Assembly (NCBI GenBank): GCA_900320865.1
Contig: ONTT01000010.1
Location: 1-54,247, forward strand
Source: an uncultured Bacteroidales bacterium
GTDB lineage: Bacteria; Bacteroidota; Bacteroidia; Bacteroidales; Paludibacteraceae
Length of the DNA: 54,247 nucleotides
Direction of reading: 5' to 3'
This document shows, piece after piece, positions 1,304 through 53,478 of this stretch (positions are counted from its first letter, which is position 1; each line of letters begins with the position of its first letter). Position numbers and translations under genes: made by a program. Under the pieces are notes generated by a model. The model worked only from the letters and a program-made list of their open reading frames with translations. It was not told the DNA's origin and searched no databases.

Positions 1304-2283
1304 CTCTTACTCGCCTAGTACATACCCTGCATTTGACTCCGATTCGATTCTCTCTCGTTAGTGTCTCGTTAGTCTGTTTTGGACTAGGGATGGGTATGAA
1401 TGTCGTTTTTGCGGAGCCATTGAAAGTAGTCAGTTATAATGTAGAGAACCTCTTTTATCCAGAGCGGGACAGTTTGAAAGATGATAGTGAATGGACACCG
1501 GAAGGGGAGAGACGATGGAGCTATACGCGGTACTACCGGAAGGTCGAAAATATCGCCCGCGTGCTGACAAATATCGGCGAGTGGGATGGGGTAGATATAG
1601 TGGGGTTGCAGGAAGTCGAAAATGCCCTTTGCGTCAAAAGGCTTTGCTATACCTTGCGGCGCGGAGAATATGATTTTGTGCATTACGAAAGCCCTGATGC
1701 GCGAGGGATAGATGTTGCGCTGATTTACAAGAAGAGTAGAGTAGATACCATCGCCACAAGGGCGATAAAGGTAAAAGGTGAAAGGGTGAATGGTGAAAGG
1801 TTAATTACCCGGGATATTCTCTATGTATGTGCGCAAATCGATAAGCGAGATACGGTTCATTTCTTTGTGTGTCATTTACCAAGTCAACGAGGCGGGAAAG
1901 CAGAGAGTGAATGGAAGAGAAGAGTAGCGAAAGAGGTGTTGGAAGAGGCGGTAGATTCCGTTTTTAAGGTACAAGCTGAGGCGAAGATCGTAGTGATGGG
2001 TGATATGAATGCGGAGGACTTAGAGGTGAAAGGGTTAAAGGATGAAAGGATGAAGGGAGAGGGAACGCATAAGTACCAAGGACGATGGACGTGTCTGGAT
2101 CATTTTTACACCTCGCCTTCTTTAGACAGCCTCAGCAGGGCGGAGATATACAACGCCGCTTGGATTCAAGAGCCGGATGAGAAATATCTGGACTTGAGAC
2201 CCAAGCGGACGTATAATGGTTTTCGCTATCAGAAAGACGGCTTTTCAGACCACCTGCCGATTGTGCTTAGAGTTTCGCTTTGA
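1300..2283 (+). CDS. Secreted endonuclease/exonuclease/phosphatase-fold protein
   Basis: This protein has the metal-dependent endonuclease/exonuclease/phosphatase (DNase I-like) fold. The motifs are KVVSYNVENLF near residue 45, GLQEVEN, MGDMNAEDL and the terminal GFSDHLPI. I choose the GTG at 1300, which overlaps the sufS stop as GTGA. It gives 327 aa and an N-terminus with a hydrophobic stretch (about residues 17-38) that reads as a signal peptide ending near VFA-EP. Starting at the later ATGs (1390, 1396) would remove the signal. The substrate (nucleic acid, phosphoinositide or other phosphodiester) cannot be told from sequence. Two short tandem-repeat arrays (1770-1805, 2025-2061) lie in frame and code for low-complexity basic or acidic stretches. 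The 3' end overlaps the convergent TonB receptor gene by 17 bp, with no terminator between them. Confidence 0.85.
   Translation: MTLTRLVHTLHLTPIRFSLVSVSLVCFGLGMGMNVVFAEPLKVVSYNVENLFYPERDSLKDDSEWTPEGERRWSYTRYYRKVENIARVLTNIGEWDGVDIVGLQEVENALCVKRLCYTLRRGEYDFVHYESPDARGIDVALIYKKSRVDTIATRAIKVKGERVNGERLITRDILYVCAQIDKRDTVHFFVCHLPSQRGGKAESEWKRRVAKEVLEEAVDSVFKVQAEAKIVVMGDMNAEDLEVKGLKDERMKGEGTHKYQGRWTCLDHFYTSPSLDSLSRAEIYNAAWIQEPDEKYLDLRPKRTYNGFRYQKDGFSDHLPIVLRVSL
1770..1805 (+). repeat. Intragenic 7/8-bp tandem array
   Basis: Five consecutive units follow the pattern GGTRAAA/GGTTAAT (one is 8 bp): GGTAAAA, GGTGAAA, GGGTGAAT, GGTGAAA, GGTTAAT. The array lies in frame in the endonuclease/phosphatase-fold gene and encodes KVKGERVNGERLI. 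It belongs to the dispersed heptamer family described in the findings. Confidence 0.75.
2025..2061 (+). repeat. Second intragenic 7/8-bp tandem array
   Basis: Units GGTGAAA, GGGTTAAA, GGATGAAA, GGATGAAG and a degenerate GGAGAGG follow each other directly. They encode EVKGLKDERMKGEG between the MGDMNAED motif and the C-terminal part of the same protein. The unit is related to that of the array 220 bp upstream. Confidence 0.65.
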
Positions 2284-4378
2284 TGCTGATTTTTGCCCAA
2301 GCGCCAGGTTGGAGGATACCGCCGTAATCGTAATAGCGGGTGTTGGTTATGTTCGTGCAATCCGCAGAAACACGCAGGTATTTGTTTTGCCAATAGACCG
2401 AGCCGTCCAAGAGCCAAACGGGCTGATAATCCGCCACTTCGCCTTCGGCATTATTATATTGCCCTTCGCGTTTCTGAAAACGTACGGTCCATGAAGCACC
2501 CAGGCCTTTATAGATGCCATGCTCCAGACGGACGGCTAACTTGTGGCTCAAGTAATCCAAGTACCGCGAACCGGCTTCTTTGAGATCCAGATCCAGATAC
2601 GTATACGCATAATCGACCGACACGCAACGCAGCCATTCATTCAGCCGGTAAGCGAGTGACAGTTCAAGCCCTGTCGCATTCACCTGTTGCTGGTTCTCGG
2701 CATGGAAAGGACGCTTGGTATCCGTCGGGACATAGACCCAATCGATGATATTCTTTCCCCACCGGTAGTACCAATCGGCAGACCAGGACAATCCGCTCCA
2801 TGTTCCTTTATAGCCGACGGAGAGCAGCCATGCTTCTTCGGGTTTGAGGTTGCGGTTGCCGAGTTGGTTGCCGGCATTATAATACAGATCCGTGAACGTC
2901 GGCATCCGGAGCGAGCGGTTGGCATTCACATAGACCGTACCGGCTTTCTTAAACTCATAGCCGATGTTCGCTCCGCCGCCCAAATGATGCCCGAATTGCG
3001 TGTTGTACGTGCCGTTAATACCTATCGAAGCGGAAAGTCCGGCGTAATAAAAAGTCTGCTCGGCATAGTAGTTCGTATGAAAGCGATTACCGCCTTTGAC
3101 AAGATCCAACACGCGTACATCTGCTAAGGGAAAATCCGCCACATTCGGCACTTGGCCATCGGGATTGATGGTATCGCCAAGGTTGGTAGAGTGCATGTTT
3201 TCATTCCGTACGCTGATGCCAAAAGAAGTCGTTCCGACACGCGAGGCATAATGCGCAGAGAGTGCCGCTGAGGCTGTTTGTGCGAAATGGAAATTGCCGT
3301 ACAACCGTTGATCCCGATGCCATTCATATCGATCGTAATTAGCTCTATACGAGGCTTGTGCATCTAACCGCCAAGCGCCCCATTGGTGCTCGTATCTGCC
3401 GGAAGCAAAAGCCGTCCGGGTAGCGTCAAACTGATCCTGCGAACCAAAACCATAACCCATTCCGAGCCCTGCATCTTTCCATTGTGCGCCGGCCTGAACG
3501 TCTAATCCTCTCCAACGCGTCTGGAAGTAGATATTCGCTAACTGAAAATCCGAATTCCGGCACGCCGTAGCTTCTTTTTCCGTCGGCCGGGGTGCATAAT
3601 ACCCTTCTGCACGGCTGTATTCGGCAGAGACATTAAATAACGCCTCATCCTTTTGTATAGAAGCCGCCAGTTCGGGATTCACCAACCCGTTCATGCCGGC
3701 TGTCAGTTTGAGCGCTATTTCTTTCGACTTTTGACTTTCTACTTTCGACTTGGTCACAATATTGATTGCCCCGGAGAAAGCGCCATGAAGATTAGCCGAG
3801 GTACCTTGCAGCACTTCGACACGCTCGATCATCTCTGTGGAGACAGGGATATTCAGCGTATAATGCCCCGTGTGAAAATCACTTAGCGGAACCCCGTTCA
3901 GCAGCACTAACACCTGATCGAACGTACCGCCGCGCATACTGATATCCGCCTGTGCGCCGTTAGCGCCACGGGTTCGCACATCCACGCCCGGCAGGTATTG
4001 CAAGATATCCGCTACCGTCTGAACCGGCAGAGCTTCTATCTCGGCCTGCGAGACCTGCGTAATCAGCCTGTACGCTTCCGAATTAACCTCAGCTTTGTGA
4101 GAAACGACCAACACCTCCTGAAGACTAAGTTGTCGGGCTTCTAATGGAACGGAATCCTTCGGAACACCTTCATCGGCTTCCACAGCAGCGATGCCTGAGA
4201 AAAGCAGTAAGGCCGAAACAGCGATAGACTTACCGCTTTTAAGCATCTCCAAATCCGTCATATACGCTGCCACACGTCCTATGGTCACCTCCCGGTGAAG
4301 CGAACAAAAGGCTGCATAAGCCTTGTGGCTGAACTGACGGAAACGGATTCCTTGTTGTTTAAGAATAGTTTTGAACAT
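2267..4378 (-). CDS. TonB-dependent outer membrane receptor
   Basis: This is a 703-aa TonB-dependent transporter. A plug domain spans about 100-210 (LPVQTVADILQYLPGVDV, DISMRGGTFDQVLVLLNG, ERVEVLQG, GAINIVTK), followed by a 22-strand-type barrel ending in ISIKAKL. LSLQEVLVVSHK (84-95) is a plausible TonB box. I start at the ATG at 4378, about 25 nt downstream of a good promoter; the upstream in-frame region crosses that promoter. The N-terminus is odd: about 50 mostly polar, basic residues (HKAYAAFCSLHREVTIGRV at 18-36) precede the hydrophobic signal segment at 51-66. A heptamer array inserts SKVESQKSK right after the plug. The overall look is of the vitamin B12/BtuB-like or siderophore class, but the ligand is not determined; no lipoprotein partner or transporter is adjacent. 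Confidence 0.93.
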   Translation of the reverse strand: MFKTILKQQGIRFRQFSHKAYAAFCSLHREVTIGRVAAYMTDLEMLKSGKSIAVSALLLFSGIAAVEADEGVPKDSVPLEARQLSLQEVLVVSHKAEVNSEAYRLITQVSQAEIEALPVQTVADILQYLPGVDVRTRGANGAQADISMRGGTFDQVLVLLNGVPLSDFHTGHYTLNIPVSTEMIERVEVLQGTSANLHGAFSGAINIVTKSKVESQKSKEIALKLTAGMNGLVNPELAASIQKDEALFNVSAEYSRAEGYYAPRPTEKEATACRNSDFQLANIYFQTRWRGLDVQAGAQWKDAGLGMGYGFGSQDQFDATRTAFASGRYEHQWGAWRLDAQASYRANYDRYEWHRDQRLYGNFHFAQTASAALSAHYASRVGTTSFGISVRNENMHSTNLGDTINPDGQVPNVADFPLADVRVLDLVKGGNRFHTNYYAEQTFYYAGLSASIGINGTYNTQFGHHLGGGANIGYEFKKAGTVYVNANRSLRMPTFTDLYYNAGNQLGNRNLKPEEAWLLSVGYKGTWSGLSWSADWYYRWGKNIIDWVYVPTDTKRPFHAENQQQVNATGLELSLAYRLNEWLRCVSVDYAYTYLDLDLKEAGSRYLDYLSHKLAVRLEHGIYKGLGASWTVRFQKREGQYNNAEGEVADYQPVWLLDGSVYWQNKYLRVSADCTNITNTRYYDYGGILQPGAWAKISIKAKL
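3721..3748 (-). repeat. Heptamer array inside TonB receptor gene
   Basis: Four perfect-period 7-mers follow each other on the + strand: CTTTCGA, CTTTTGA, CTTTCTA, CTTTCGA. Read on the coding strand they give the peptide SKVESQKSK immediately after the plug motif GAINIVTK. The unit is the same as that of the array at the asd/U32 junction (45008-45042). Confidence 0.8.
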
Positions 4379-4408
4379 AAAATAATTATTTGCTTTCAAA
4401 AAAGCGTG

Positions 4409-4440
4409 CAAAATTACTGCTTTTTTTGCATATTTGCAAA
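4409..4440 (-). promoter_or_regulatory. Promoter of the TonB receptor gene
   Basis: Reading the minus strand, TTTG (4437-4440), a 20-nt spacer and TAATTTTG (4409-4416) match the Bacteroidetes -33/-7 promoter. Transcription would start near 4402, about 24 nt before the ATG. It overlaps the divergent promoter by 16 bp. Confidence 0.75.
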
Positions 4441-4456
4441 TATTTTCGTACCTTTG
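4425..4456 (+). promoter_or_regulatory. Promoter of the DUF2851-araC unit
   Basis: TTTG (4425-4428), a 20-nt spacer and TACCTTTG (4449-4456) match the Bacteroidetes consensus. The predicted start is near 4463, which leaves a leader of only about 12 nt. The -33 elements of this and the opposing promoter lie inside each other's spacers. Confidence 0.8.
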
Positions 4457-4474
4457 CGCCAAAATTAATCCTTT

Positions 4475-13837: not shown

Positions 13838-13879
13838 CACCCGATTTGTATAGCACGCAAAAAATGGAGTGGCTAACTC

Positions 13880-13897
13880 CTTTGCGGCCGCAAAGGT
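13880..13897. repeat. 18-bp perfect palindrome
   Basis: CCTTTGCGGCCGCAAAGG reads the same on both strands. One half contains the -7 element of the leftward rsmA promoter. A related arrangement (ACCTTTGC, 4 nt, GCAAAGGT) occurs at 20354-20373. Confidence 0.75.
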
Positions 13898-13922
13898 AGT
13901 ACTTTTTTTTGAATTGACCAAA
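13891..13922 (-). promoter_or_regulatory. Promoter of rsmA-corA
   Basis: On the minus strand, TTTG (13919-13922), a 20-nt spacer and TACCTTTG (13891-13898). The predicted start near 13884 leaves a leader of about 125 nt that runs back across the opposing gtrA promoter. Confidence 0.75.
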
Positions 13923-13946
13923 AAAATAACAATTTTTTTACAAAAA

Positions 13947-14447
13947 ATGCGTAAATTAGCGCAAATAATTACAAAAATCATCGATTTTTTCTATCGTCCC
14001 TTCTCCAAATGGATATCGGAGCAGTTGTTTCGCTATGCCGCTTGCGGAGGGGGAAACCTTGTCCTTGACTGGGTACTCTATTTCTTGATTTATAACTTTG
14101 TGATCGGTCATAATTTGGTATATTTCCAATTACCACTCACCAATTACCAATTATGCCTCACGCCTCATATCGCTACGCTCTGTATCGTTTTCCCAATAAC
14201 CCTGCTAACCGGTTTCTGGTTGCAGAAATATGTCACGTTTACCGCTTCGCGTCTCAACGGTTGGCGACAATTGTCGCGTTATATCTTGATCGTAGCTGTT
14301 AATCTGGCTATCAATTACTTCGGTCTTAAACTCTGTGTCGATGTACTGGGTTGGTATCCAACACCATCCAAGATGCTTATCACCATCATCACAGTTGTTA
14401 TCTCTTACTTAGGCCAAAAACACTACACTTTCCGTGTAGAAAAGTGA
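13947..14447 (+). CDS. GtrA-like flippase-type membrane protein
   Basis: This 166-aa protein has four membrane segments in the GtrA/DPMS fold: FRYAACGGGNLVLDWVLYFL (family motif), a second hairpin, then FPITLLTGFWLQKYVTF and the final VVISYLGQKHYTF. Family members help move polyprenyl-linked sugars across the inner membrane. I start at the ATG at 13947; the longer frame from GTG 13869 runs through a palindrome and a promoter element. A heptamer array at 14126-14153 replaces the loop between helices 2 and 3 with QLPLTNYQLCLT, an unusual insertion for this compact family. Confidence 0.88.
   Translation: MRKLAQIITKIIDFFYRPFSKWISEQLFRYAACGGGNLVLDWVLYFLIYNFVIGHNLVYFQLPLTNYQLCLTPHIATLCIVFPITLLTGFWLQKYVTFTASRLNGWRQLSRYILIVAVNLAINYFGLKLCVDVLGWYPTPSKMLITIITVVISYLGQKHYTFRVEK
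14126..14153 (+). repeat. Heptamer array inside gtrA-like gene
   Basis: Four consecutive 7-mers: CCAATTA, CCACTCA, CCAATTA, CCAATTA. They encode QLPLTNYQL at about residues 61-69, in a loop between predicted membrane helices. Confidence 0.8.
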
Positions 14448-18215: not shown

Positions 18216-18360
18216 TTGCAGTTAATTCATCCTTGCATTGTTTCAAAAGACTGGTAGCTTCGGCTGCCAGTCTTTTGTATACATCCATACTGATGGCCTC
18301 CGCTTGTTCCAATTGCGAAATGATAGTCTCCGCCTTTTCTATTTTCTCATCGTAAGTCAT
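18190..18360 (-). CDS. xseB: Exodeoxyribonuclease VII small subunit
   Basis: This is a 56-aa protein read from ATG 18360 to TAG 18190. MTYDEKIEKAETIISQLEQ followed by the amphipathic MDVYKRLAAEATSLLKQCKDEL is the two-helix hairpin of XseB (E-x-L-x-x-I-v-x-x-L-E pattern). It partners XseA to degrade single-stranded DNA. The gene is the last of the unit tsaC-sugar transferase-xseB and lies 29 bp after the transferase, a spacer made of heptamer repeats. XseA, which normally sits directly upstream, is not there. The last 26 bp overlap the convergent CoA-transferase gene. Confidence 0.82.
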   Translation of the reverse strand: MTYDEKIEKAETIISQLEQAEAISMDVYKRLAAEATSLLKQCKDELTAINADNSPT

Positions 18361-18364
18361 AATT

Positions 18365-18399
18365 AATCACTAATCACCAATCACCAATCACCAATCTAT
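18365..18399 (-). repeat. Heptamer array at the transferase/xseB junction
   Basis: Five units on the + strand: AATCACT, then AATCACC three times, then AATCTAT. The TAG stop of the sugar transferase gene (18396-18398, minus strand) lies inside the last unit, and xseB starts 4 bp beyond the other end, so the array is essentially the whole intergenic spacer. Confidence 0.85.
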
Positions 18400-24248: not shown

Positions 24249-25007
24249 ATGTCTCAACATCTGAAATCTCGCATTATTCGGCGTTTGAAAGCTGCTGTTT
24301 CGTACTACCCGCCTCATGCCGACATTTCCGCTTCCCATGCACGGGGAGTGCGCTATTTTGTGCCGGTAATAGGCATTGATGCGTTGTGGGGCGCCATGAA
24401 CACCGTCAAGGAAGGACGCCACTACAAAAAACACATCATCGTCCGCCGTGTCCCGCGCCGCGGAGGACAGCTCCTGCAGCTCTACACCTACCGTTTCCCC
24501 AAGTCTTGGTCTGCAGCCTGTGTCGCTAACCGCGAACTCATCAAGGAAGCGCAACGCCGCGCACATGCCCTCGAACATGACTGCTCCTATGCCGGTATCG
24601 ACTGGCATATCCGCTTCTTCAAGCATTATTTCCGTGTCGTCAAAGGCGGTGCCGCACCCGAACCTGGCATGAAACGCTACTCCCGTTTCTACCAATACAC
24701 CTACGTCGCCATCTACCGCGAACTCAAGGCCGCACAATCCGAACAAACCCAAGTGCAAACCACCCAACAAGCGCAAGCCACCCAACAACAGGCAGAGCCT
24801 CTGCAACACCCCGCGCAAACCGCACAACAAGCCCATGAACCCGCGATTAACATGGATGACATCACCTTCAACCCCATCCGATATCTACCTTCGCGCACTC
24901 GCCGTGTCTATCCCTTGCGTCGTGTCCTTGCAGCTCGTGACTACATAAACGACCCGCCACCCAAACCCTCCCCCCTAATCCCTAACCCCTATTTGACAAG
25001 CAAATGA
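24249..25007 (+). CDS. Unrecognised basic protein with Q/A-rich linker
   Basis: This is a 252-aa soluble-looking protein of unknown function. Residues 1-160 are compact, basic and aromatic (KHIIVRRVPRRGG, RFPKSWSAACVANRELIKEA, FKHYFRVVKGG, YSRFYQYTYVAIYREL). Residues about 161-198 are a Gln/Ala/Thr low-complexity linker. The tail carries RRVYPLRRVLAARDYINDPPP and ends in a heptamer array encoding PLIPNPYL. Codon use is C-ending and unlike neighbours such as pckA (many GCC, CGC, ACC), which could mean low expression or transfer. There is no signal peptide or membrane helix. The charge suggests nucleic-acid binding, but this is only a guess. It has its own consensus promoter. Confidence 0.7.
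   Translation: MSQHLKSRIIRRLKAAVSYYPPHADISASHARGVRYFVPVIGIDALWGAMNTVKEGRHYKKHIIVRRVPRRGGQLLQLYTYRFPKSWSAACVANRELIKEAQRRAHALEHDCSYAGIDWHIRFFKHYFRVVKGGAAPEPGMKRYSRFYQYTYVAIYRELKAAQSEQTQVQTTQQAQATQQQAEPLQHPAQTAQQAHEPAINMDDITFNPIRYLPSRTRRVYPLRRVLAARDYINDPPPKPSPLIPNPYLTSK
24973..24993 (+). repeat. Heptamer array at the 3' end of the unknown gene
   Basis: Three units CCCTAAT, CCCTAAC, CCCTATT sit just before the stop codon and code for the last residues PLIPNPYL. Confidence 0.65.
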
Positions 25008-38912: not shown

Positions 38913-39773
38913 ATGCAAATAATAACTACCAAAAAAGAACTTCAGGCTATAGTAACAGCCTGCAAAACGTCCGGTAAAACCATTGGACTGGTGCCAACTA
39001 TGGGTGCATTACATGCGGGGCACGCCAGTTTAGTGGAGCGTGCGGTGAATGAGAACAATGTCTGTTTCGTTTCGGTATTTGTGAATCCTACTCAGTTTAA
39101 TAACAAAGAGGATTTGGCGAAGTATCCGAGGGATATCAAACGCGATGCGGAGTTATTGCAGAGGATCGGTGCTGATTTTGTGTTTGCCCCTACGCCCGAA
39201 GAGATGTACACCGCTGAAGAGATGGATTCGACCTTCGCTTTTGATTTTGCGGGTTTGGATACGATGATGGAAGGTAAGATGCGTCCCGGACATTTCAACG
39301 GAGTCGTACAGGTGGTAAGTCGTCTGTTCTATCTGGTACAACCTGATAAGGCTTATTTTGGTGAGAAAGATTTTCAGCAGTTAGCGATCATCCATCATAT
39401 GGTAGAACGCAGTTCTATGGCCGGTACGTTTGGAAATTTGCAGATAGTGAATTGTCCTATTGTACGAGAGGAATCGGGTTTGGCGCTTTCCAGTCGTAAT
39501 GAACGCCTTTCGGATGCCGAGAAAAAAACTGCTTTGGCTATCAGTAAGACACTTTTTGAATCGTTAAAATGGGCGAAAGAGGCAGGGGCTACGGTAGCGC
39601 AAGTGCAGCAACGTGTTATTGATACAATCAATGCGGTAGAGGGTCTGGAAGTGGAGTATTACGAAATCGTGGACCAGACGACTTTGTTACCTGCTACGGG
39701 TTTTGAGCATGCTATCGGGTGTGTGACGGTCTATTGCGGTCCTGTTCGACTGATAGATAATATCAAATACTAA
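38913..39773 (+). CDS. panC: Pantothenate synthetase
   Basis: This 286-aa enzyme joins pantoate and beta-alanine with ATP to make pantothenate. The nucleotidyl-transferase motif HAGH (34-37, in PTMGALHAGHASL) and the SSRN block (ALSSRNERL) near 193 correspond to the HIGH and KMSKS-like ATP sites. FVNPTQFN and PGHFNGVVQVVSRLF bind pantoate. panD and panB are not here. The stop codon TAA is the first bases of a heptamer array that leads into pdxB. Confidence 0.96.
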   Translation: MQIITTKKELQAIVTACKTSGKTIGLVPTMGALHAGHASLVERAVNENNVCFVSVFVNPTQFNNKEDLAKYPRDIKRDAELLQRIGADFVFAPTPEEMYTAEEMDSTFAFDFAGLDTMMEGKMRPGHFNGVVQVVSRLFYLVQPDKAYFGEKDFQQLAIIHHMVERSSMAGTFGNLQIVNCPIVREESGLALSSRNERLSDAEKKTALAISKTLFESLKWAKEAGATVAQVQQRVIDTINAVEGLEVEYYEIVDQTTLLPATGFEHAIGCVTVYCGPVRLIDNIKY

Positions 39774-39792
39774 TTGGTAATTGGAAATTGGT
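39772..39792 (+). repeat. Heptamer array supplying the pdxB start
   Basis: Three 7-mers: AATTGGT, AATTGGA, AATTGGT. The panC stop (39771-39773) overlaps the first unit, and the only plausible pdxB start codon, TTG at 39788, lies inside the third. Confidence 0.8.
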
Positions 39793-40726
39793 CCTTGTTT
39801 GCGACGCACATATTCCGTATCTCGTAGAAGCGGTCCGCATGAACTGGCCGCAGGTGCAGATTTGTCCGCTTGAACCGGAACAAATCGATGCTTTGGCAGT
39901 ACGGGAAGCGGATGTATTAGTCGTGCGCACACGCACGCAGGTCAATAAAATATTATTAGAAGGTTCACGCGTGCGGCTGGTCTGCACGGCTACGATTGGT
40001 TTTGACCATATAGACACGGCCTATTGTGAAGCGCAGGGTATTCATTGGGCGTCTTGTCCGGGCTGTAATGCCAAGGCGGTTTGCGAATATATCGAAGAAG
40101 CGATAGAGGAAGTAATTTCCCATTTCCAATTTCCCATTTCCAATTTTTCAACTATCGGTATCGTGGGAGTGGGTCATGTCGGTTCGTTGGTGACCGAAAT
40201 GGCTAAGCGAAGAGGGATGAATGTACTGCTGAATGATCCGCCTAAAGGAATTGGTGTTCCGCTTGACGAGATAGCCGAAAAAGCGGATATCATTACTTTC
40301 CACACTCCTTTGGATAGTTCTACGTTCCATCTCTGCGATGAAGCGTTTTTGAAGCGCTGTAAACCCGGTGCACTCATCATCAATGCGGCACGTGGAGGCG
40401 TAGTGGATGAAAAAGCACTATTAGAGAGCGGACATCCGTATATCTTGGATACCTGGGAGAATGAACCGGCTATCGATAGAAAGGTCTTAAACGGTGCTTT
40501 TCGCGCCTCTATGCATATTGCGGGCTATTCACAGGAGGGAAAATGGAATGCTTCGCAGATGTGCTTGAATCGGATTACAGAAGAATTTCAGTTACCGGCT
40601 GTTTCTTTACCGCTTTTGCCGCCTAAAAAGGTGCAGGAGAAGAATTGGCTTGAAACCATTACCGAAGTGCTCAAAGCATATCCGGAGCGATTTGAGACCT
40701 TGCGCAAAAACTATCCTTTGCGCTGA
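39788..40726 (+). CDS. pdxB: 4-phosphoerythronate dehydrogenase
   Basis: This 312-aa D-2-hydroxyacid dehydrogenase of the PdxB type acts in the DXP-independent branch of pyridoxal-phosphate synthesis. VCDAHIPYL at the start, TATIGFDHID, the Rossmann motif GIVGVGHVGS (124-133), ARGGVVDEKAL and the late HIAGYSQEGK fit PdxB rather than generic lactate or phosphoglycerate dehydrogenases. No in-frame ATG precedes the conserved start; TTG 39788 is the only common start codon available and is part of a heptamer array. A second array replaces the linker before the Rossmann motif (SHFQFPISNF). A hairpin terminator follows. Confidence 0.9.
   Translation: MVLVCDAHIPYLVEAVRMNWPQVQICPLEPEQIDALAVREADVLVVRTRTQVNKILLEGSRVRLVCTATIGFDHIDTAYCEAQGIHWASCPGCNAKAVCEYIEEAIEEVISHFQFPISNFSTIGIVGVGHVGSLVTEMAKRRGMNVLLNDPPKGIGVPLDEIAEKADIITFHTPLDSSTFHLCDEAFLKRCKPGALIINAARGGVVDEKALLESGHPYILDTWENEPAIDRKVLNGAFRASMHIAGYSQEGKWNASQMCLNRITEEFQLPAVSLPLLPPKKVQEKNWLETITEVLKAYPERFETLRKNYPLR
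40115..40149 (+). repeat. Heptamer array inside pdxB
   Basis: Units ATTTCCC, ATTTCCA, ATTTCCC, ATTTCCA, ATTTTTC. They encode ISHFQFPISNF between the catalytic domain hinge and the NAD-binding motif. Confidence 0.82.
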
Positions 40727-40751
40727 TTTTTCAGAAGAAAACCTCTATAAA

Positions 40752-40818
40752 ACAAAGAAGGTTGTCTCACGACAACCCAATCTTTTTACTTAACCTTAAA
40801 TCTAATACCATGAAAAAC
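40752..40818 (-). ncRNA. Candidate small RNA between pdxB and trmD
   Basis: A leftward promoter (40825-40856) fires into a spacer with no leftward gene. About 40 nt after the predicted start comes a perfect 7-bp hairpin (40760-40777) followed on the minus strand by TTCTTTGTTTT. The product would be roughly 65-70 nt with a single-stranded 5' part and a terminator hairpin, the usual shape of a trans-acting regulatory RNA. No ORF of note is present in it. I cannot name an RNA family. Confidence 0.55.
40760..40777. terminator. Terminator shared by pdxB and the candidate sRNA
   Basis: GGTTGTC, loop TCAC, GACAACC: a 7-bp perfect stem. On the + strand it is followed by CAATCTTTTT; on the minus strand by TTCTTTGTTTT. 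Confidence 0.8.
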
Positions 40819-40824
40819 ACGGTG

Positions 40825-40856
40825 CAAAAGTACTGCTTTTTGACGAACTGACCAAA
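40825..40856 (-). promoter_or_regulatory. Leftward promoter of the candidate sRNA
   Basis: On the minus strand, TTTG (40853-40856), a 20-nt spacer and TACTTTTG (40825-40832): full consensus, with no protein gene downstream of it before pdxB's end. Confidence 0.72.
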
Positions 40857-40886
40857 TATTTTATCAAAAAAGTGTCATTTTTCTTC

Positions 40887-40932
40887 ATTCTGTCAATTGC
40901 AGTTTACAAAATGTAGCCATTACTGGCAGAAT
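40887..40932 (-). terminator. Possible terminator after trmD
   Basis: ATTCTGTCA (40887-40895) can pair with TGGCAGAAT (40924-40932), 9 bp with one wobble, and encloses a smaller hairpin. The T-run after it on the minus strand is interrupted, so the assignment is weak. Confidence 0.35.
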
Positions 40933-40940
40933 AGAATATT

Positions 40941-41621
40941 TTAGTTCTCTTCCAATAAATCAGGTCTCCTTTCTTTGGTATGCGCTAAAGACCGCTCATA
41001 GTTCCATTCTTCTATCTTAGCCTGGTGTCCGCTGAGTAGGATCTCGGGCACTTTCCATCCTTTATATTCAGCAGGGCGTGTGTATACACCGGCTTCGAGT
41101 AGTCCGTCTTGGAATGAGTCATTGAGTGCGCTTTCTACATCGCCCAGTGCTCCGGGCAACAGACGTACGATCGCGTCTGTCATCATGGCCGCCGGCATCT
41201 CTCCGCCTGTGAGCACAAAATCTCCGATACTATATTCGCGCGTGATAAGATGATCGCGCACGCGCTGATCTACGCCTTTGTAATGACCGCAAAGGATGAT
41301 GATATTTTCTTTGAGGGAAAGGCTGTTAGCCGCTTTCTGGTCAAAGCGTTCTCCGTCCGGTGCGGTGAAGATGATCTCGTCGTAGTGGCGTTCGGATTTA
41401 AGATGGGTGATGAGGCGATCAATGGGTTCTATCTGAAGCACCATACCGGCGCCAAAACCGAAAGCATAATCGTCCACTTTACGATGTTTGTCCAGCGTCC
41501 AGTCGCGTAAGTTATGCACGTATATTTCACAAAGACCTTTGGTCTTTGCGCGCTGGATGATCGAGTGATTTAACGGCGACTCGAGTAATTCGGGACAACA
41601 GGTGATGATATCTATTCGCAT
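40941..41621 (-). CDS. trmD: tRNA (guanine-N1)-methyltransferase TrmD
   Basis: This 226-aa SPOUT-class enzyme makes m1G37 in tRNAs with G36. The trefoil-knot SAM site is visible: [13 protein letters not shown] and [20 protein letters not shown]. The tRNA-binding Asp region is [20 protein letters not shown]. The family loop usually rich in glycine reads AFGFGAGM here. It is the last gene of the long leftward cluster; a 29-bp spacer made of GAGATTT heptamers separates it from yidD. Confidence 0.95.
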
Positions 41622-41623
41622 TG

Positions 41624-41651
41624 GAGATTTGAGATTTGAGATTTGAAATTT
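41624..41651 (-). repeat. Heptamer array between yidD and trmD
   Basis: Units on the + strand: GAGATTT three times, then GAAATTT. The array fills the spacer; its last base begins the yidD stop codon and it ends 2 bp before the trmD ATG. Confidence 0.85.
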
Positions 41652-41905
41652 TATGGCACCGGGTCATAGCCGGATCCGCCCCAAGGATGACAACGGAGGA
41701 TCCGTTTGATACCCAGCCATCCGCCTTTAAAAATACCGTATTTGAGTACCGCTTCAACCATATATTGGCTGCAGGTAGGTGTATAGCGGCAGGAGGGAGG
41801 TGTCAACGGTGAGATAAAGACCCGATAGAAATAGACAGGGAGGAGGAAAAACTTTCGGATAAAAGTTTTCCATTGGGAATTGGACATGGGAGATTGATTT
41901 TTCAT
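41651..41905 (-). CDS. yidD: Membrane protein insertion efficiency factor YidD
   Basis: This small membrane-associated protein (84 aa from ATG 41905; 78 aa from ATG 41887) acts with the YidC pathway. The family core is complete: [31 protein letters not shown] and KRILRCHPW, with a short end SGYDPVP. The N-terminal residues before WKTFIRK (NQSPMSNSQ) come from a heptamer array, so the true start is uncertain. It lies between rnpA and trmD in the conserved rnpA-yidD arrangement. Confidence 0.92.
41872..41899 (-). repeat. Heptamer array at the yidD start
   Basis: Units ATTGGGA, ATTGGAC, ATGGGAG, ATTGATT on the + strand. Both candidate yidD start codons lie in or next to the array. Confidence 0.7.
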
Positions 41906-41919
41906 CTCCGGTTTTTGAT

Positions 41920-42276
41920 TTAACTCTCCGCTATTTTTTTCAGGGCTTTGCATATGGCTTTTTCGATGACGGCGAAGGATTGTGGGTCTTTATCCATATA
42001 ATTGAACGCGATCTCATAGTGCTTTTCGCCCAGTAAGTCTTGATGAAGGCGATAAGCTTCGCGCATCAGGCGACGCAGGTGGTTTCGCTTGACTGCTTTT
42101 TTGAAGAGGGATTTGGGCGCCCAGACGAGAATCTGATTGGTTATGGGTGATTGGTTATTGGTGATTTCCTGAAACGTCACACGTAAAGGCCAAGCCGTGA
42201 AGCGCTGACCTTCTTTGTACAGTTGTGCGATGCGCAGCTGTCCGCATAGTTTATGTTCCTTTGGAAACCTATTCAT
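41920..42276 (-). CDS. rnpA: Ribonuclease P protein component
   Basis: This 118-aa basic protein helps RNase P RNA process tRNA 5' ends. The RNR motif [14 protein letters not shown] (63-76) and the preceding PKSLFKKAV are clear. Between beta strands, where other RnpA proteins have a short turn, residues 37-48 read [12 protein letters not shown], encoded by five heptamers. The gene is preceded by a 71-bp spacer made wholly of 7- and 8-bp repeats. Confidence 0.93.
42135..42169 (-). repeat. Heptamer array inside rnpA
   Basis: Units on the + strand: GATTGGT, TATGGGT, GATTGGT, TATTGGT, GATTTCC. The encoded peptide is [12 protein letters not shown], inserted into the RnpA fold. Confidence 0.85.
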
Positions 42277-42280
42277 TCAC

Positions 42281-42345
42281 TCACCAATCACCAATTACCA
42301 ATCACCAATTACCACTCATCCACTCATCCACTCATCCACTCATCC
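42281..42345 (-). repeat. Mixed 7- and 8-bp arrays between hemD and rnpA
   Basis: Units TCACCAA, TCACCAA, TTACCAA, TCACCAA, TTACCAC run into four perfect ACTCATCC octamers (42314-42345). The hemD stop (42348-42350) lies in the degenerate tail, so the 71-bp spacer is all repeat. Confidence 0.9.
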
Positions 42346-42347
42346 AC

Positions 42348-43094
42348 TCACTCATTCTTCTCCAGGTAGTCCGCAATAGCCAGCGGCAGGGAAGCGAAAG
42401 GCAGTCCTTGTCCGGCTTCTATATCGACGCGGAAACCGGCTTCTTCCAGAGCGCGGATAGTACCATTACCGAAGGCTGCAATAAGGGTCTTACCCTGTTT
42501 CCAGTCCGGGAAATTCTCCTTGAGGGACGTAACACCAGCCGGCGTGAAGAGCGCGATGAGGTCGTAGTCAAAGGGTTTGTCCGAAGGCCAGGGAGTGGTC
42601 ACCGTGCGGTACATAATAGCGGGTGTCACTTCAATGCCGTTCTCGGCGAACATATTGATCTGGTCGTCTGTATGGATATCCGATAGTACCATCAGATATT
42701 TCTCATTGGGACGGCGATGCATAGCCGGCAGCAGATCCTCAAATTTATTACCGCTCTCGGGGAAGAAGACTTTGCGCTTGCGATAGTTGATGAATTTCTG
42801 CAAGTACAGTCCTACCGACTCGGAATTGCAATAATAGTGCATCGAGTCCGGTACGTTAAAACGCATCTCCTCGCACATACGGAAGTAATGCTCGGCTCCG
42901 AGTTTGGAGTTCAAGATAACCGCCGTGTAGTCCATGGGGTTGATATGCTGCTGACGAAACTCACGTGCTTCCAGTCCTTCGATATGAATGAACTGATAGA
43001 AATCGCATTTCACACCAAACTGCGTCTCCAAACGGGTATAGGGGTTGTGCTCCGTAGATGGACGGGGTTGAGAAAAAAGTAGTTTTTGTATCAT
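42348..43094 (-). CDS. hemD: Uroporphyrinogen-III synthase
   Basis: This 248-aa two-lobed enzyme closes hydroxymethylbilane to uroporphyrinogen III in haem and cobalamin precursor synthesis. HemD is poorly conserved, but YTAVILNSKLGAEHYF (first lobe), LMVLSDIHTDDQ and FDYDLIALFTPAGVTSLKENFP with IAAFGNGTIRALEEAGFRV (second lobe) are the expected blocks. I use the ATG at 43094, which overlaps the DUF4271 stop as ATGA. The DUF4271-hemD pair is a regular Bacteroidetes arrangement. Confidence 0.88.
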   Translation of the reverse strand: MIQKLLFSQPRPSTEHNPYTRLETQFGVKCDFYQFIHIEGLEAREFRQQHINPMDYTAVILNSKLGAEHYFRMCEEMRFNVPDSMHYYCNSESVGLYLQKFINYRKRKVFFPESGNKFEDLLPAMHRRPNEKYLMVLSDIHTDDQINMFAENGIEVTPAIMYRTVTTPWPSDKPFDYDLIALFTPAGVTSLKENFPDWKQGKTLIAAFGNGTIRALEEAGFRVDIEAGQGLPFASLPLAIADYLEKNE

Positions 43095-43741
43095 AGGATA
43101 GCAATTATTTGATCGGATATAATGAATAGCAGTGCCCAAGGCAGCAACTCCAGGGTAATGCTATAGATAAGCAAATAAAGGATGGCGATAGGACTATTGA
43201 CAAATTGTTTCCAGGAACGATAGAACCAGATCAGTAAGAAAACCGCGGCGATGGAGCCGACCAACCATCTGTTGAGTAAAGGCGAACCCACACGCATCAG
43301 GATCAACAGCACCGGGTAAAGGAGGACTGTAACGAGCGTGACGATATTGCCGTAATGCTCGTAGTGGGACCCGAAATGACGGGATAGGTCAAAGGTGAAA
43401 TCGATGAACAGATGGCATAGCATTTTGATACTCAGTCCGGCCAGAACGATGCCGTAGATGACACCATAGCCCTTTATTGTAAAAGCCTCGGTCGTGCAGC
43501 AAAGATAGATCGCCATGGCGATGATACCGATGCGGAAGATCCCCATGAGCAGTTGTCCCATCAAGGTAGCCGGAGACTCTTTGTACATACGGTCGGTCTG
43601 TGCCGACAGGGAGTTCTTCGCCTGGGTGATGATGCCCGGTTGATACGCTTCGCTGAGTAAAGCACAGAGAAGGAGGCCGAACATCAACCAAGCGCACCAG
43701 GGTGCACTCGAGTAGGATACTATGTGCGCGATCTCATTCAT
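43091..43741 (-). CDS. DUF4271 membrane protein
   Basis: This 216-aa integral membrane protein has five or six hydrophobic segments, matching the DUF4271 family by size, topology and its constant place upstream of hemD. Function is unknown. Its start overlaps the U32 peptidase stop (43734) by 8 nt, and its stop overlaps hemD, so the three genes are one translationally coupled block. Confidence 0.8.
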   Translation of the reverse strand: MNEIAHIVSYSSAPWCAWLMFGLLLCALLSEAYQPGIITQAKNSLSAQTDRMYKESPATLMGQLLMGIFRIGIIAMAIYLCCTTEAFTIKGYGVIYGIVLAGLSIKMLCHLFIDFTFDLSRHFGSHYEHYGNIVTLVTVLLYPVLLILMRVGSPLLNRWLVGSIAAVFLLIWFYRSWKQFVNSPIAILYLLIYSITLELLPWALLFIISDQIIAIL

Positions 43742-45014
43742 TCGTTTCGTCCCATATAAACAGTTTATCGCCTCGGCGGATCAAGCGGTCGGTCTTAAGC
43801 GAGAAGAACTCGCCTTGTCGTACGCGCTTGGTGGGGTTACCGTTGGTGTCGTGCATACCGGTGGCGGTACACTCATAGACACCGGTGGTTTCGCCGGTGA
43901 TGAGTAGCGGCTGACCCTCTTCGATAGCGTCAACAGCTTCTACGATGAACTCGGCCACACTCAGGTTCTTGAAGAAATTGGTGCATTTCGCCGCATAGAC
44001 TTTCTTACGGGTAGCTTTATTGCCGTAGGAGTGGGTCCATTCACCCAGTTTTTGGCCTTGGTAATATCCGTCCCAGAACCCGCGGTTGAAGACACGGCTG
44101 AGGCGTTCATTCCAGTCGGCTATCTTAGCATCAATCCCGCATGGCTGTTCGCCTCCGGAGGCTCTCCGGTATTCGCCGTTCTGCCATGCTTCCACGGCTT
44201 CTCGATAACAGCGCACAACGGTATCGACGTATTCGGCTCCGCGTGCACGGCCTTCGATCTTCAGCACCCGTACGCCGGCATCCAGCATCTTATTGAGGAA
44301 ATGAATGGTCTTCAGGTCTTTGGGCGACATGATATATTGGTTGTCGATGTCGAGTTCGAGATCGGAGGATTTATCTTTGACGGTGTATCCCCGACGACAT
44401 ACCTGTACGCACGCTCCGCGGTTAGCGGATAGGCCGTAGTTATTGAGGCTCAAATAGCATTTTCCGCTGACCGCCATGCAGAGGGCACCATGACAGAACA
44501 TCTCGATGCGGATCGGTTCGCCGCTGCGGCCGCAGATATGTTGCTCTTGGATGTCGCGATAGATAGAGGCTACCTGTTCCATATTCAGTTCGCGCGCCAA
44601 GACTACGACGTCCGCAAACTGGGCATAGAACTTCAAGGCTTCGGTGTTCGCGATGTTGAGTTGGGTAGAGAGATGTACCTCCTGACCGATACTGTTGGCG
44701 TATTGCATGACCGCGATATCGCTGGCGATGACGGCATCTACACCTACGGCGTGGGCTTTATCCACGATCTGACGCATCAGCGGCAGGTCTTCGGGATACA
44801 TGACGGTATTGACCGTCAGGTAGGTCTTCACCCCTGCTTCGCGACAGGTAGCTACGATGGTAGCCATGTCGTCGGTCGTGAAGTTAACGGACGAACGAGC
44901 ACGCATGTTAAGGTGCTCAATACCGAAATAGACGCTGGTAGCTCCGGCTTGTATCGCCGCAGCCAAACTCTCCCAGCATCCTACCGGAGCCATTATTTCA
45001 ATCGGGTCTTTCAT
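43734..45014 (-). CDS. U32 family peptidase
   Basis: This 426-aa protein is of the U32 (collagenase-like/YegQ) family. MAPVGCWESLAAAIQAGATSVYFG is the usual start, and EMFCHGALCMAVSGKCYLS carries the family signature with clustered cysteines. The C-terminal third is the beta-barrel accessory domain. Many U32 proteins act in tRNA or ubiquinone hydroxylation rather than proteolysis, so the peptidase name is conventional. I start at ATG 45014; this codon and the asd stop lie in the same heptamer array. Confidence 0.92.
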   Translation of the reverse strand: MKDPIEIMAPVGCWESLAAAIQAGATSVYFGIEHLNMRARSSVNFTTDDMATIVATCREAGVKTYLTVNTVMYPEDLPLMRQIVDKAHAVGVDAVIASDIAVMQYANSIGQEVHLSTQLNIANTEALKFYAQFADVVVLARELNMEQVASIYRDIQEQHICGRSGEPIRIEMFCHGALCMAVSGKCYLSLNNYGLSANRGACVQVCRRGYTVKDKSSDLELDIDNQYIMSPKDLKTIHFLNKMLDAGVRVLKIEGRARGAEYVDTVVRCYREAVEAWQNGEYRRASGGEQPCGIDAKIADWNERLSRVFNRGFWDGYYQGQKLGEWTHSYGNKATRKKVYAAKCTNFFKNLSVAEFIVEAVDAIEEGQPLLITGETTGVYECTATGMHDTNGNPTKRVRQGEFFSLKTDRLIRRGDKLFIWDETNE

Positions 45015-45042
45015 CTTTCGACTTTCTACTTTTGACTTTCGA
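45008..45042 (-). repeat. Heptamer array spanning the asd stop and the U32 start
   Basis: Units on the + strand: CTTTCAT, CTTTCGA, CTTTCTA, CTTTTGA, CTTTCGA. The first unit contains the U32 ATG (minus strand) and the third contains the asd TAG. The last residues of Asd (VESQK) are repeat-encoded. Confidence 0.9.
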
Positions 45043-46030
45043 CTAAAATCTCCGCTATTTGTACGGCATTGAGGGCGGCACCTTTGCGGATCTGGTCGCT
45101 TACGCACCAGAAACTGAGTCCGTTCTCATCCGTGAGGTCTTTACGGATACGTCCGATGAACACTTCATCTTTACCGCTGAGGAACAGCGGCATGGGGTAT
45201 ATCTTGTTTTCCGGATCGTCCATGAGTACGCACCCTTGCGCCTTGGCAAAAGCCTCTTTGGCTTGCTCTACGCTGATGGGTTGTTCTGTTTCGATCCAGA
45301 TACTCTCGCTATGTGCTCGGAGGGAGGGTACACGCACGCAAGTAGCGCTGACCTTGATATCCGAGTGCATGATTTTACGCGTCTCGTTAAACATCTTCAT
45401 CTCCTCTTTGGTGTAGCCGTTTTCGGTAAACACGTCAATATGCGGGATGACATTATAGGCTAACTGATACGCGAATTTGTTTACCGTCACTTCGTCGCCG
45501 TTCAGCACTTGACGGTATTGGTTCTCAAGTTCTTTCATCGCTTGCGCACCTGCTCCTGAAGCGGCCTGATAAGTAGCTACATGCACGCGACGGATGTGCG
45601 TGATGTTCTCTATGGCCTGCAGGGCTACCACCATCTGGATGGTCGTGCAGTTCGGGTTCGCGATGATATTACGCGGACGATGGAAGGCATCCGCGGGATT
45701 CACTTCGGGTACTACGAGAGGCACATCCTCCTCCATACGGAAGGCGGATGAGTTATCGATCATGATGGTACCGAAGCGGGTGATGTCCTCCGCATACGCA
45801 CGTGACACGCCTGCGCCCGCGGAGACAAAAGCAATATCGACGCCCTTGAAAGCGTCGTTATGTTGCAGCAGTTGTACTTCGTATTCCTTGCCGCAGAATG
45901 TGTACTTTGTTCCGGCACTCCGTTCCGAACCGAATAGTTTTAGTTCGGAAACGGGGAATTGCCGCTGTTCAAGAACAGCCAGCAATTCCTGTCCGACGGC
46001 GCCTGAAGCGCCAACGATAGCTATAACCAT
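45026..46030 (-). CDS. asd: Aspartate-semialdehyde dehydrogenase
   Basis: This is a 334-aa NADP-dependent enzyme of the lysine/methionine/threonine and diaminopimelate pathway. The nucleotide motif GASGAVGQE is at 8-16, the catalytic cysteine is C128 in NPNCTTIQ, and the [14 protein letters not shown] and [11 protein letters not shown] blocks follow (substrate Arg and catalytic His). Length is typical. The winged-helix gene ends 1 bp upstream. The C-terminal VESQK is encoded by a heptamer array. Confidence 0.96.
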
Positions 46031-46031
46031 A

Positions 46032-46226
46032 TTAAGCCAGAGCTACAATGGTGTCAGCTTCAGCTTCGGTAAAGGTCAGTTTACCCTCACGAGCGAGCCA
46101 ACCGAGAGCCAAAAAGAGGTCCTCGTTTTTCAGTTTGGTTGCTTTTTTCAGAGCCTTGATACTCTGAGCACCATTTTGCAGAGCACCCCATACGAGGCCT
46201 GCGTTCTCACCGATTTTAGTAATCAT
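46032..46226 (-). CDS. Winged-helix protein of the DUF2582 type
   Basis: This is a 64-aa small protein with the whole length forming a winged helix: [54 protein letters not shown]. It matches the short winged helix-turn-helix family (PF10771/DUF2582). It probably binds nucleic acid or another protein; the target is unknown. It sits directly before asd. Confidence 0.82.
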
Positions 46227-46257
46227 AATACCTTAAATTATTTTTTGTGACTAATAC

Positions 46258-46278
46258 GGATGCTTTTAAGGGGCATCC
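46258..46278. other. Intercistronic hairpin
   Basis: GGATGC (46258-46263) and GCATCC (46273-46278) form a 6-bp stem between fabF and the winged-helix gene. There is no T-run, so it is more likely an RNA-processing or stability element than a terminator. Confidence 0.4.
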
Positions 46279-46292
46279 ATCCCTATATCTCA

Positions 46293-46334
46293 AATTACCA
46301 ATCACCAATCACCAATCACCAATTACCAATCACT
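46293..46334 (-). repeat. Heptamer array at the fabF 3' end
   Basis: Six units: AATTACC, AATCACC three times, AATTACC, AATCACT. The fabF stop TGA (46330-46332, minus strand) falls in the last unit. Confidence 0.9.
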
Positions 46335-50674: not shown

Positions 50675-50702
50675 TTGAGAGTTGAAAGTTTAAAGTTGAA
50701 AG
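50675..50702 (-). repeat. Heptamer array abutting the mutL start
   Basis: Units on the + strand: TTGAGAG, TTGAAAG, TTTAAAG, TTGAAAG. The array ends exactly at the mutL GTG, where a ribosome-binding site would normally lie. Confidence 0.8.
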
Positions 50703-52819: not shown

Positions 52820-52866
52820 CAATCCCGCGACCATCTCGCGACCATTACGGACATCTACGTCCCGTC
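52820..52866. repeat. Repeat module M1, copy A
   Basis: This 47-bp block is identical to 53352-53398. It contains GCGACCAT twice and GGAC/GTCC flanking 6 nt, so it is itself partly palindromic. Confidence 0.85.
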
Positions 52867-53056: not shown

Positions 53057-53080
53057 CCGGCATATTATGCCGGCATTTTA

Positions 53081-53182
53081 GGGTGACGGGGTGACAGGGT
53101 GACACCCTTGTTTATATATCTCACACACGCGTGTGGGTGTATAGTTTTAGGAAAAGGGTGTCACCCCGTAACCCTGTCACCC
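53081..53182. repeat. Inverted pair of octamer arrays
   Basis: GGGTGACG, GGGTGACA, GGGTGACA (53081-53104) faces TGTCACCC, CGTAACCC, TGTCACCC (53159-53182), the reverse complement with one extra degenerate unit. The 54 bp between them contain the palindrome CACACGCGTGTG. The arms could form a long cruciform or hairpin. Confidence 0.8.
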
Positions 53183-53256: not shown

Positions 53257-53325
53257 TCGGAATGACCTGCCATGGAATCCATTGTTGTGGTACGCATTAT
53301 TGGCGTGTAGTACATGCGGGTTTGT

Positions 53326-53346
53326 CTATCATCTATCATCTATTTA
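53326..53346. repeat. Heptamer array in the repeat island
   Basis: Units CTATCAT, CTATCAT, CTATTTA immediately precede copy B of module M1. Confidence 0.6.
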
Positions 53347-53351
53347 CGGTT

Positions 53352-53478
53352 CAATCCCGCGACCATCTCGCGACCATTACGGACATCTACGTCCCGTCCT
53401 TTCCGTATGTCCTTTCCCCGGCATTGAATGCCGGCTTTCATTTTGTCCATTGTGCCATGGAGAATTGCCTTGACTTGG
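53352..53478. repeat. Repeat modules M1-M2-M3, copy B
   Basis: This holds M1 (53352-53398), M2 (53413-53453) and M3 (53454-53478). The order differs from copy A (M1-M3-M2). The whole stretch from 52746 to 53772 has no supportable gene; the rest is AT-rich. Confidence 0.8.

Follow-up and report, generated by a model that had tools for sequence, protein, structure and literature searches.

What process scatters tandem repeats of one constant period and of many different sequences through a bacterial genome? The question is raised by a 54,247-nt stretch of DNA, hereafter the window (contig ONTT01000010.1 of assembly GCA_900320865.1), from an uncultured Bacteroidales bacterium of the family Paludibacteraceae, in which short arrays of imperfect 7-bp units lie at gene junctions and inside genes, several of them between a pdxB-like gene and fabF. 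We find that such heptamer arrays turn over rapidly at fixed sites with an excess of 7-nt length steps, that arrays of one genome share units more often than arrays of different genomes, that many are inserted in frame in proteins, and that their units vary with an odd spectrum of transitions and transversions. The best explanation is that a mutational process produces the arrays and that they are neither a mobile element nor a set of binding sites.

The arrays far exceed chance. An earlier note, made from the letters of the window alone, had listed 18 of them; Tandem Repeats Finder (TRF; score of at least 30) recovers 17, and the array placed at 41872 is found neither by TRF nor, at three thresholds, by a gapless period scan (match +1, mismatch −1.5; standard threshold, score of at least 11). 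At that standard threshold the scan also misses the arrays at 1770, 24973 and 53159, four of the 18 in total, and TRF adds a perfect 8-bp array, 42312-42350, absent from the list. The scan yields 12 period-7 and three period-8 segments in the window, where 20 second-order Markov sequences average 0.05 of either kind. The window and 20 chosen stretches of the same genome total 415.6 kb, ≈21% of an assembly of 1.97 Mb in 65 contigs that is 82.65% complete, and hold 99 period-7, 17 period-8 and 13 period-11 arrays, with 0-10 each for periods 4-6, 9, 10, 12 and 13; several of these stretches were picked on contigs with known AATYACC arrays, so the density may be somewhat high. Three Markov versions of the 415.6 kb contain no period-7 array, and a count equal to that of shuffled sequence, which the note had named as fatal to its reading, is thus not what we find: heptanucleotide tandems occur at many places in the genome, above chance. 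The note's impression that arrays are densest in the pdxB-fabF region is right inside the window (eight in its own list at 39.7-46.4 kb, not the nine it stated), but other stretches are equally dense, with nine arrays per 6.56 kb in stretch L018, eight in the window and seven each in L013 and L014; the cluster is not special.

Searching with the window FabF gave 80 relative loci (1.52 Mb), 77 of which (L025-L101) bear the title Paludibacteraceae, Bacteroidales or, in one case, Bacteroidia; many of these name the rumen or another animal gut as their source. L102-L104 are other Bacteroidota (Cryomorphaceae, Flavobacteriaceae, Maribacter). FabF identity of up to 91% suggests that the window groups with the 77. 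The 80 loci carry 243 period-7, 67 period-11, 43 period-8 and 43 period-9 arrays, 12 of period 6, five of period 10, one of period 13 and none of period 5. At least one period-7 array is present in 66 of the 77 loci and none in the other 11; 260 kb from other families of the order (one stretch per genome, 20 genomes; two stretches all N) contain three arrays, so the enrichment belongs to the clade and not to the order. A second periodicity, of 11 bp, is also seen (e.g., L009:17200-17275, L029:3835-3926 and L047:1973-2070); none of the 13 period-11 arrays in the window genome sample lies fully inside a called open reading frame (ORF), and an 11-bp tandem, ATCCCGCGACC, occurs twice in the window ≈530 bp apart (52822-52845 and 53354-53377).

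Arrays turn over fast at fixed sites. Beside the fabF stop codon, units of GGTRATT in the window face GGTTATT in L062, TTGAGTG/TTGATAG in L079, AAAGTTG in L091 and AAAGTCG in L085, and in L086 the corresponding stretch falls under the threshold and is followed by a second array. Six of the 77 loci have an above-threshold array at this end of fabF, counting L092, where the array lies further off; shorter GTTTAGA-like runs are seen by eye or at a lower threshold in L026, L034, L035 and L088. The other arrays of the pdxB-fabF region are similarly replaced or absent where relatives can be matched (among the relatives listed, at most 16 per array), the two pdxB sites having one matching relative each. 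Orthologous junctions in relatives carry other arrays or none, and the second outcome that the note had named as fatal to its reading, orthologues in distant genera with the same bases at the same places, is thus not what we find either. We then compared eleven close genome pairs, in which 198 arrays were queried and 152 located by both flanks in the partner; arrays near a stretch end, with N nearby or with flanks not located in the partner were dropped. Among 109 distinct sites, the partner has the same kind of unit at 44, another unit at 15, no array at 47 and a mixed state at three, so that it lacks the array or has another unit at 62 of 109. At one site, for example, ATATTGG units in L074 face AAAGTTG units in L094 in loci that are 95% identical. 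Length differs at 18 of 47 same-unit sites, and at nine of these by a multiple of 7 (7, 7, 14, 21, 21, 21, 35, 63 and 105; binomial p 0.0004), with one further same-unit site differing by 21 or 25 depending on direction; arrays are gained or lost and vary in length between close genomes, and roughly one in two length changes is a multiple of 7. Opposite the heptamer array at L128:4463, the close relative G092 has an array of 8-bp units (ATCACGAG-like), so the repeat step can differ at one place. Separately, array-free junctions can hold other blocks with short hairpins, e.g., GTTTTTAC-loop-GTAAAAAC, or words like GACCGCT..GCTGTAAGACC; such blocks occur where a close relative has an array (L069 facing L065:15718, L085 facing L086:15990, and G129 sites facing L133:9288, L135:316 and L080:18469).

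The units are diverse but not independent. That unit sequences differ between arrays, as the note had it, is right, with 45 canonical units in the 99 arrays of the window genome and 123 in 316 arrays of the clade (342 before removal of those <60 bp after the previous array or poly-A/T-like); it is also incomplete, as 35 of 93 arrays of the window genome have AATYACC-like units, and AATCACC, AATTACC and AAAGTTG are the commonest units. Among the 316 arrays, two consensus units from one genome agree at 6/7 positions or more in 12.1% of pairs (window genome omitted) and two from different genomes in 6.2%, a level of sharing reached in 0 of 2000 label permutations on this measure and 1 of 2000 on mean similarity; flank heptamers match in 2.0% of pairs both within and between genomes. 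In the window genome itself, the share is 17.1% for arrays on the same contig and 18.7% for arrays on different contigs, versus 8.9% for comparisons with other genomes, or 14.3% versus 7.8% once AATYACC-like units are left aside. Scrambling the letter order within units removes the effect (8 to 500 shuffles), which hence is not base composition. Outside ORFs it is reached in 0 of 1000 permutations with the window genome and 15 of 1000 without it (6/7 measure). The strongest test of unit spread stands on one genome pair, G125 and G129: among arrays present in only one of the two, sharing is 19.1% within versus 2.9% between genomes (0 of 3000 permutations; 17.1% versus 3.1% in a first pass at a slightly different threshold). 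An apparent burst of AATYACC in G105 (25 pattern hits) relative to G103 (one hit), two genomes 97.6% identical at the fabF locus, was rejected, because one region with these arrays is only 72% identical to G103 and the G105 bin thus looks chimeric.

Variation inside arrays is likewise unusual. In arrays of at least 28 nt, shorter ones being excluded, units differ by 239 transitions and 348 transversions (transition/transversion ratio, ts/tv, 0.69) compared with 496 and 279 in well-aligned noncoding flanks (ts/tv 1.78; Fisher p 1e-17) and 7616 and 4011 in coding sequence. Orthologous arrays of equal length show 24 transitions and 33 transversions (p 0.0016 versus flanks), those with >20% base differences having been excluded. 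This odd ratio indicates that arrays do not vary by ordinary point mutation; such a spectrum would result if unlike units were mixed or if copying were error-prone. Variable positions are not clustered in the unit, being adjacent in 33 of 98 cases, the expected third. Short hairpins with a three-base loop show no special excess over other loop sizes, and hairpins of all loop sizes are ≈2-fold more frequent than in Markov sequence, a count inflated by runs of N.

Many arrays lie in or touch genes, as those of the window illustrate:

1767..1801, unstranded: weak period 7/8 array, AAAGGTR-like; TRF score 33-35, under the standard scan threshold.
2025..2058, unstranded: period-8 array TGAAAGGA, found by TRF and scan.
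3721..3751, minus strand: heptamer array CTTTCGA in ORF 2267-4699 (minus), encoding ..TKSKVESQKSKE..
14122..14153, plus strand: heptamer array ATTACCA in ORF 13869-14447 (plus).
18350..18396, unstranded: heptamer array AATCACC, with the stop codon of ORF 18396-19667 (minus) at its end.
24972..24991, unstranded: short heptamer array CCCCTAA; TRF score 33, under the standard scan threshold.
39771..39791, plus strand: heptamer array TAATTGG, which includes the panC stop codon and extends into the TTG start (39788) of the ORF of a pdxB-like 2-hydroxyacid dehydrogenase.
40114..40146, plus strand: heptamer (14-mer) array ATTTCCC in the pdxB-like ORF, encoding ISHFQFPISNF.
41620..41651, minus strand: heptamer array ATTTGAG, between the yidD stop and the trmD start.
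42134..42166, minus strand: heptamer array in rnpA, encoding 11 residues inserted in an RnpA loop.
42278..42318, unstranded: heptamer array AATYACC, between the hemD (HEM4) stop and the rnpA start.
42312..42350, unstranded: perfect period-8 array CCACTCAT, 4.9 copies, adjoining the 42278..42318 array and overlapping the hemD stop.
45007..45044, minus strand: heptamer array CTTTCGA where the start of a U32 peptidase ORF overlaps the end of the asd ORF; other arrays stand here in relatives.
46293..46333, minus strand: heptamer array AATYACC, which overlaps the fabF stop codon and follows straight on from it.
50675..50702, unstranded: heptamer array TTGAAAG, adjoining the start of ORF 48860-50674 (minus).
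53080..53104, unstranded: period-8 array AGGGTGAC.
53159..53182, unstranded: weak period-8 array TGTCACCC; TRF score 34, under the standard scan threshold.
53325..53343, unstranded: heptamer array TCTATCA.

With placement judged from simple ORF calls, arrays are found at stops, at starts, between ORFs and inside them, the last class comprising 135 of 316 arrays (≈43%) and, in the window genome, 52 of 99 period-7 segments fully inside ORFs; by density, the window genome has 149 segments per 100 kb of non-ORF DNA (those not fully inside ORFs) versus 13.5 inside. Since 7 cannot be divided by 3, AATCACC runs through all three frames and encodes the heptapeptide NHQSPIT. Consensus units of in-ORF arrays are stop-free in all frames in 86.7% of cases on the coding strand versus 37.0% on the other. 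Ten array-bearing ORFs picked from the window genome all have a Pfam match (10/10) and, going by their domains, appear to include a MiaB-like enzyme, a pseudouridine synthase, an LD-carboxypeptidase and an RlmL-like methyltransferase. At least five spanning orthologues are available for 40 of the 95 in-ORF arrays that were queried in the window and the named loci, and the median orthologue is 3-22 residues shorter at the array in 24 of 40, about equal in 14 and longer in two, some entries being one site in close relatives. The 11 array-coded residues of RnpA lie in a loop between beta strands 31-37 and 48-52 of an AlphaFold2 model (mean predicted local distance difference test score 80.3; 64 for residues 41-50), and a second RnpA loop has array-coded residues in L043 and L083. 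Putative lipoprotein-like signal peptides, so read from the translation, are array-coded too and are replaced between relatives (L048, L058). Strand orientation agrees within contigs of the window genome in 510 of 660 pairs, with little agreement in the other loci (196 of 351); we do not take it as a separate signal, for it is largely explained by the need of in-ORF arrays for a stop-free coding strand.

How could these observations be joined? The earlier note argued for a heptamer-making mechanism and against the spread of one element; the constant period and varying units support it, but the units are not independent, and because the arrays of a genome share units above chance, some spread of units within the genome must be added. 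We tentatively favor slippage in 7-nt steps combined with template switching between arrays and filtered by selection, a reading we rate somewhat short of probable. When a gap is filled or a fork restarts, the growing strand would slip or re-pair in steps of 7 nt, less often 8 or 11, so that a short stretch would be copied several times. In a genome already full of heptamer arrays, we propose, a detached strand end could anneal to a different array, be extended there by a few units and then go back, and such copying would carry prevalent units to new places and mix unit variants. Selection would remove most products, leaving those where extra DNA is harmless: stop and start junctions, signal peptides and, on the stop-free strand, protein loops. 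A fixed step of 7 with free sequence points to the geometry of the copying machinery rather than to a template. A proposal that 7 nt is the length in contact with the polymerase is cited in PMC4679880. Within-genome sharing of units together with the odd spectrum argues for copying between arrays in addition, and the position of arrays and their stop-free strand argue for selection as the filter.

Local replication slippage with a 7-nt preference, a proposal that PMC4679880 ascribes to Mrazek et al. 2007, followed by ordinary mutation, would dispense with copying between arrays, shared units being simply sequences that slip easily, and we regard this as a genuine possibility if not the one we prefer. 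It accounts for the excess of 7-nt length steps, and the between-genome sharing of 6.2%, compared with 2.0% for flanks, reads as a general unit preference. Of the units, 64.6% lack C or G; the figure is 29.5% for flank heptamers, and the low GC of units would by itself predict 50.4%. New units are moreover somewhat similar to the partner site. On the other side, genome-specific sharing exceeds what base composition gives, G125 and G129, whose fabF loci are 92.6% identical, differ in the units of their unshared arrays, the match to the new unit is 5/7 positions or worse at 16 of 36 array-free partner sites, and the ts/tv of array variants is unlike that of ordinary mutation.

Several results weigh against slippage with template switching. 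New units match the partner's local sequence at 5.73/7 positions versus 5.19/7 in shuffled contexts (0 of 300), which favors local seeding for part of the new units, and nine of the 18 length changes are not multiples of 7. The G125/G129 pattern is not repeated in the other pairs, which pooled give 14.1% sharing within versus 13.0% between genomes (1803 of 3000 permutations reach the value; 71 and 77 unit pairs only). When the window genome is omitted, mean similarity outside ORFs falls short of significance (100 of 1000 permutations). A donor search for the fabF array identified no donor; many other arrays of the genome match it, with matches extending at most ≈14 bases beyond it.

The remaining explanations fare less well. 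A dedicated templating enzyme, whether reverse transcriptase or another polymerase, writing heptamers at DNA breaks would fit the constant step, the imperfect copies and those new units that are unlike the partner's local sequence, but we hold it improbable: 123 canonical units in the clade do not fit one template, and the domain distribution in 61 genomes, some of them incomplete, supports neither a reverse transcriptase, which the earlier note's templating enzyme might have been, nor a Y-family polymerase as the cause. RVT_1, the domain expected of reverse-transcriptase-templated systems such as DGR or telomerase-like ones, is patchy, occurring in 22 of 61 genomes, once in the window genome, and not found in array-bearing G003, G006, G032, G034 and G035, of which some are incomplete; the Y-family polymerase domain is present in 50 of 61 and was not found in the window genome, at its 82.65% completeness, despite its arrays. 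Loss of mismatch repair likewise finds no support and is not needed, as MutS_I is present in 57 of 61 genomes, that of the window included. A role as functional sites for regulator binding, translation or termination, as proposed for the TAACTGA repeats of Beggiatoaceae, is suggested by the many arrays at gene junctions and is very unlikely given different units or none at orthologous junctions, the many arrays inside coding sequence and their mixed orientation to genes. An assembly or binning artefact is scarcely credible, since, although nearly all genomes are by title metagenome-assembled, and G105 (the genome of L050) looks chimeric (fabF locus 97.6% identical to L048, another contig region ≈72%), arrays occur in 66 of 77 loci from many projects, form in-frame, stop-free insertions in conserved proteins and are common to close pairs at orthologous sites.

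How do these arrays relate to known repeats? Like cyanobacterial short tandemly repeated repetitive sequences, they are dispersed tandem heptanucleotides with more than one unit per genome; those typically comprise one or a few fixed unit sequences, whereas the 45 canonical units in 99 arrays here are not a few fixed units, and imperfect units, many in-ORF peptide insertions and fast replacement between close relatives further set the present arrays apart. Elhai has reportedly described small repeats in cyanobacterial heptamer arrays. With Rickettsia palindromic elements, which are longer, they share in-frame insertion into conserved proteins but are non-palindromic heptamer tandems. Mobile elements of the type of repetitive extragenic palindromes or miniature inverted-repeat transposable elements are marked by a palindrome or by terminal inverted repeats with a transposase; here 64.6% of units lack C or G on one strand, so most units are not palindromes.

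Heptamers are described as over-represented in many genomes, with little detailed literature (PMC4692102), and three of the cyanobacterial tandem heptanucleotides are mentioned for Calothrix (PMC4692102). The G-quadruplex heptamers GGGNATC of Xanthomonas and Nostoc (PMC4692102) are, like the present arrays, genome-wide, of about four units per array (a median of 4.6 here) and enriched outside genes; unlike in those, no G-tract is required here, AATYACC containing at most two G or C letters in a row, and, going by the unit list, AATCACC, AATTACC and AAAGTTG have no G-tract of at least three. The earlier note knew of no equivalent in Bacteroidales, yet sets of TAACTGA are reported in Beggiatoaceae, cyanobacteria and five Bacteroidetes (PMC4679880), including two in Paludibacter propionicigenes (Bacteroidales, Paludibacteraceae). 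Those repeats, too, form 7-nt tandem sets, mostly intergenic for TAACTGA, with 7-step indels between strains and presence or absence of arrays in close relatives (PMC4679880). That account follows one unit, in contrast to the many genome-typical units here; TAACTGA (canonical AACTGAT) is the commonest unit in 1 of 99 arrays of the window genome, and the two sets of Paludibacter compare with 99 arrays of all units in 415.6 kb. In the TAACTGA type genome the sets lie just upstream of start codons (PMC4679880), whereas here they occur at stops and starts and between and inside ORFs. Borg repeats evolve fast and arise from local seeds (PMC9879509); independent origins, fast evolution, location in and between ORFs and creation of new protein segments are common to both systems, but Borg repeats are near-perfect, unique to a locus and, in ORFs, of unit length divisible by three (PMC9879509), unlike the imperfect 7-nt units common to several loci here, with 52 of 99 segments fully in ORFs. 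A literature search over titles and abstracts, whose coverage takes in few subscription papers, returned none on genome-specific heptamer dialects or on protein insertions by heptamer arrays.

Heptamer repeats are thus already known, also in Paludibacter, and the arrays described here are an extreme variant; new are the within-genome sharing of units, the fast turnover, the in-ORF arrays that add residues and the odd ts/tv. The clade offers many births, losses and replacements of arrays among genomes 89-98% identical, together with array-free partner sites, so that step, seed and source of units would be readable directly from it once more genomes are compared. In a bolder form, which we consider doubtful, trans-acting copying with a built-in 7-nt step would write a genome's own heptamers into new places, giving a lineage-specific, drifting repeat dialect and a steady source of new protein segments such as signal peptides and loops. 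The arrays also show one way in which repeats turn into in-frame segments of conserved proteins, the RNase P protein subunit among them.

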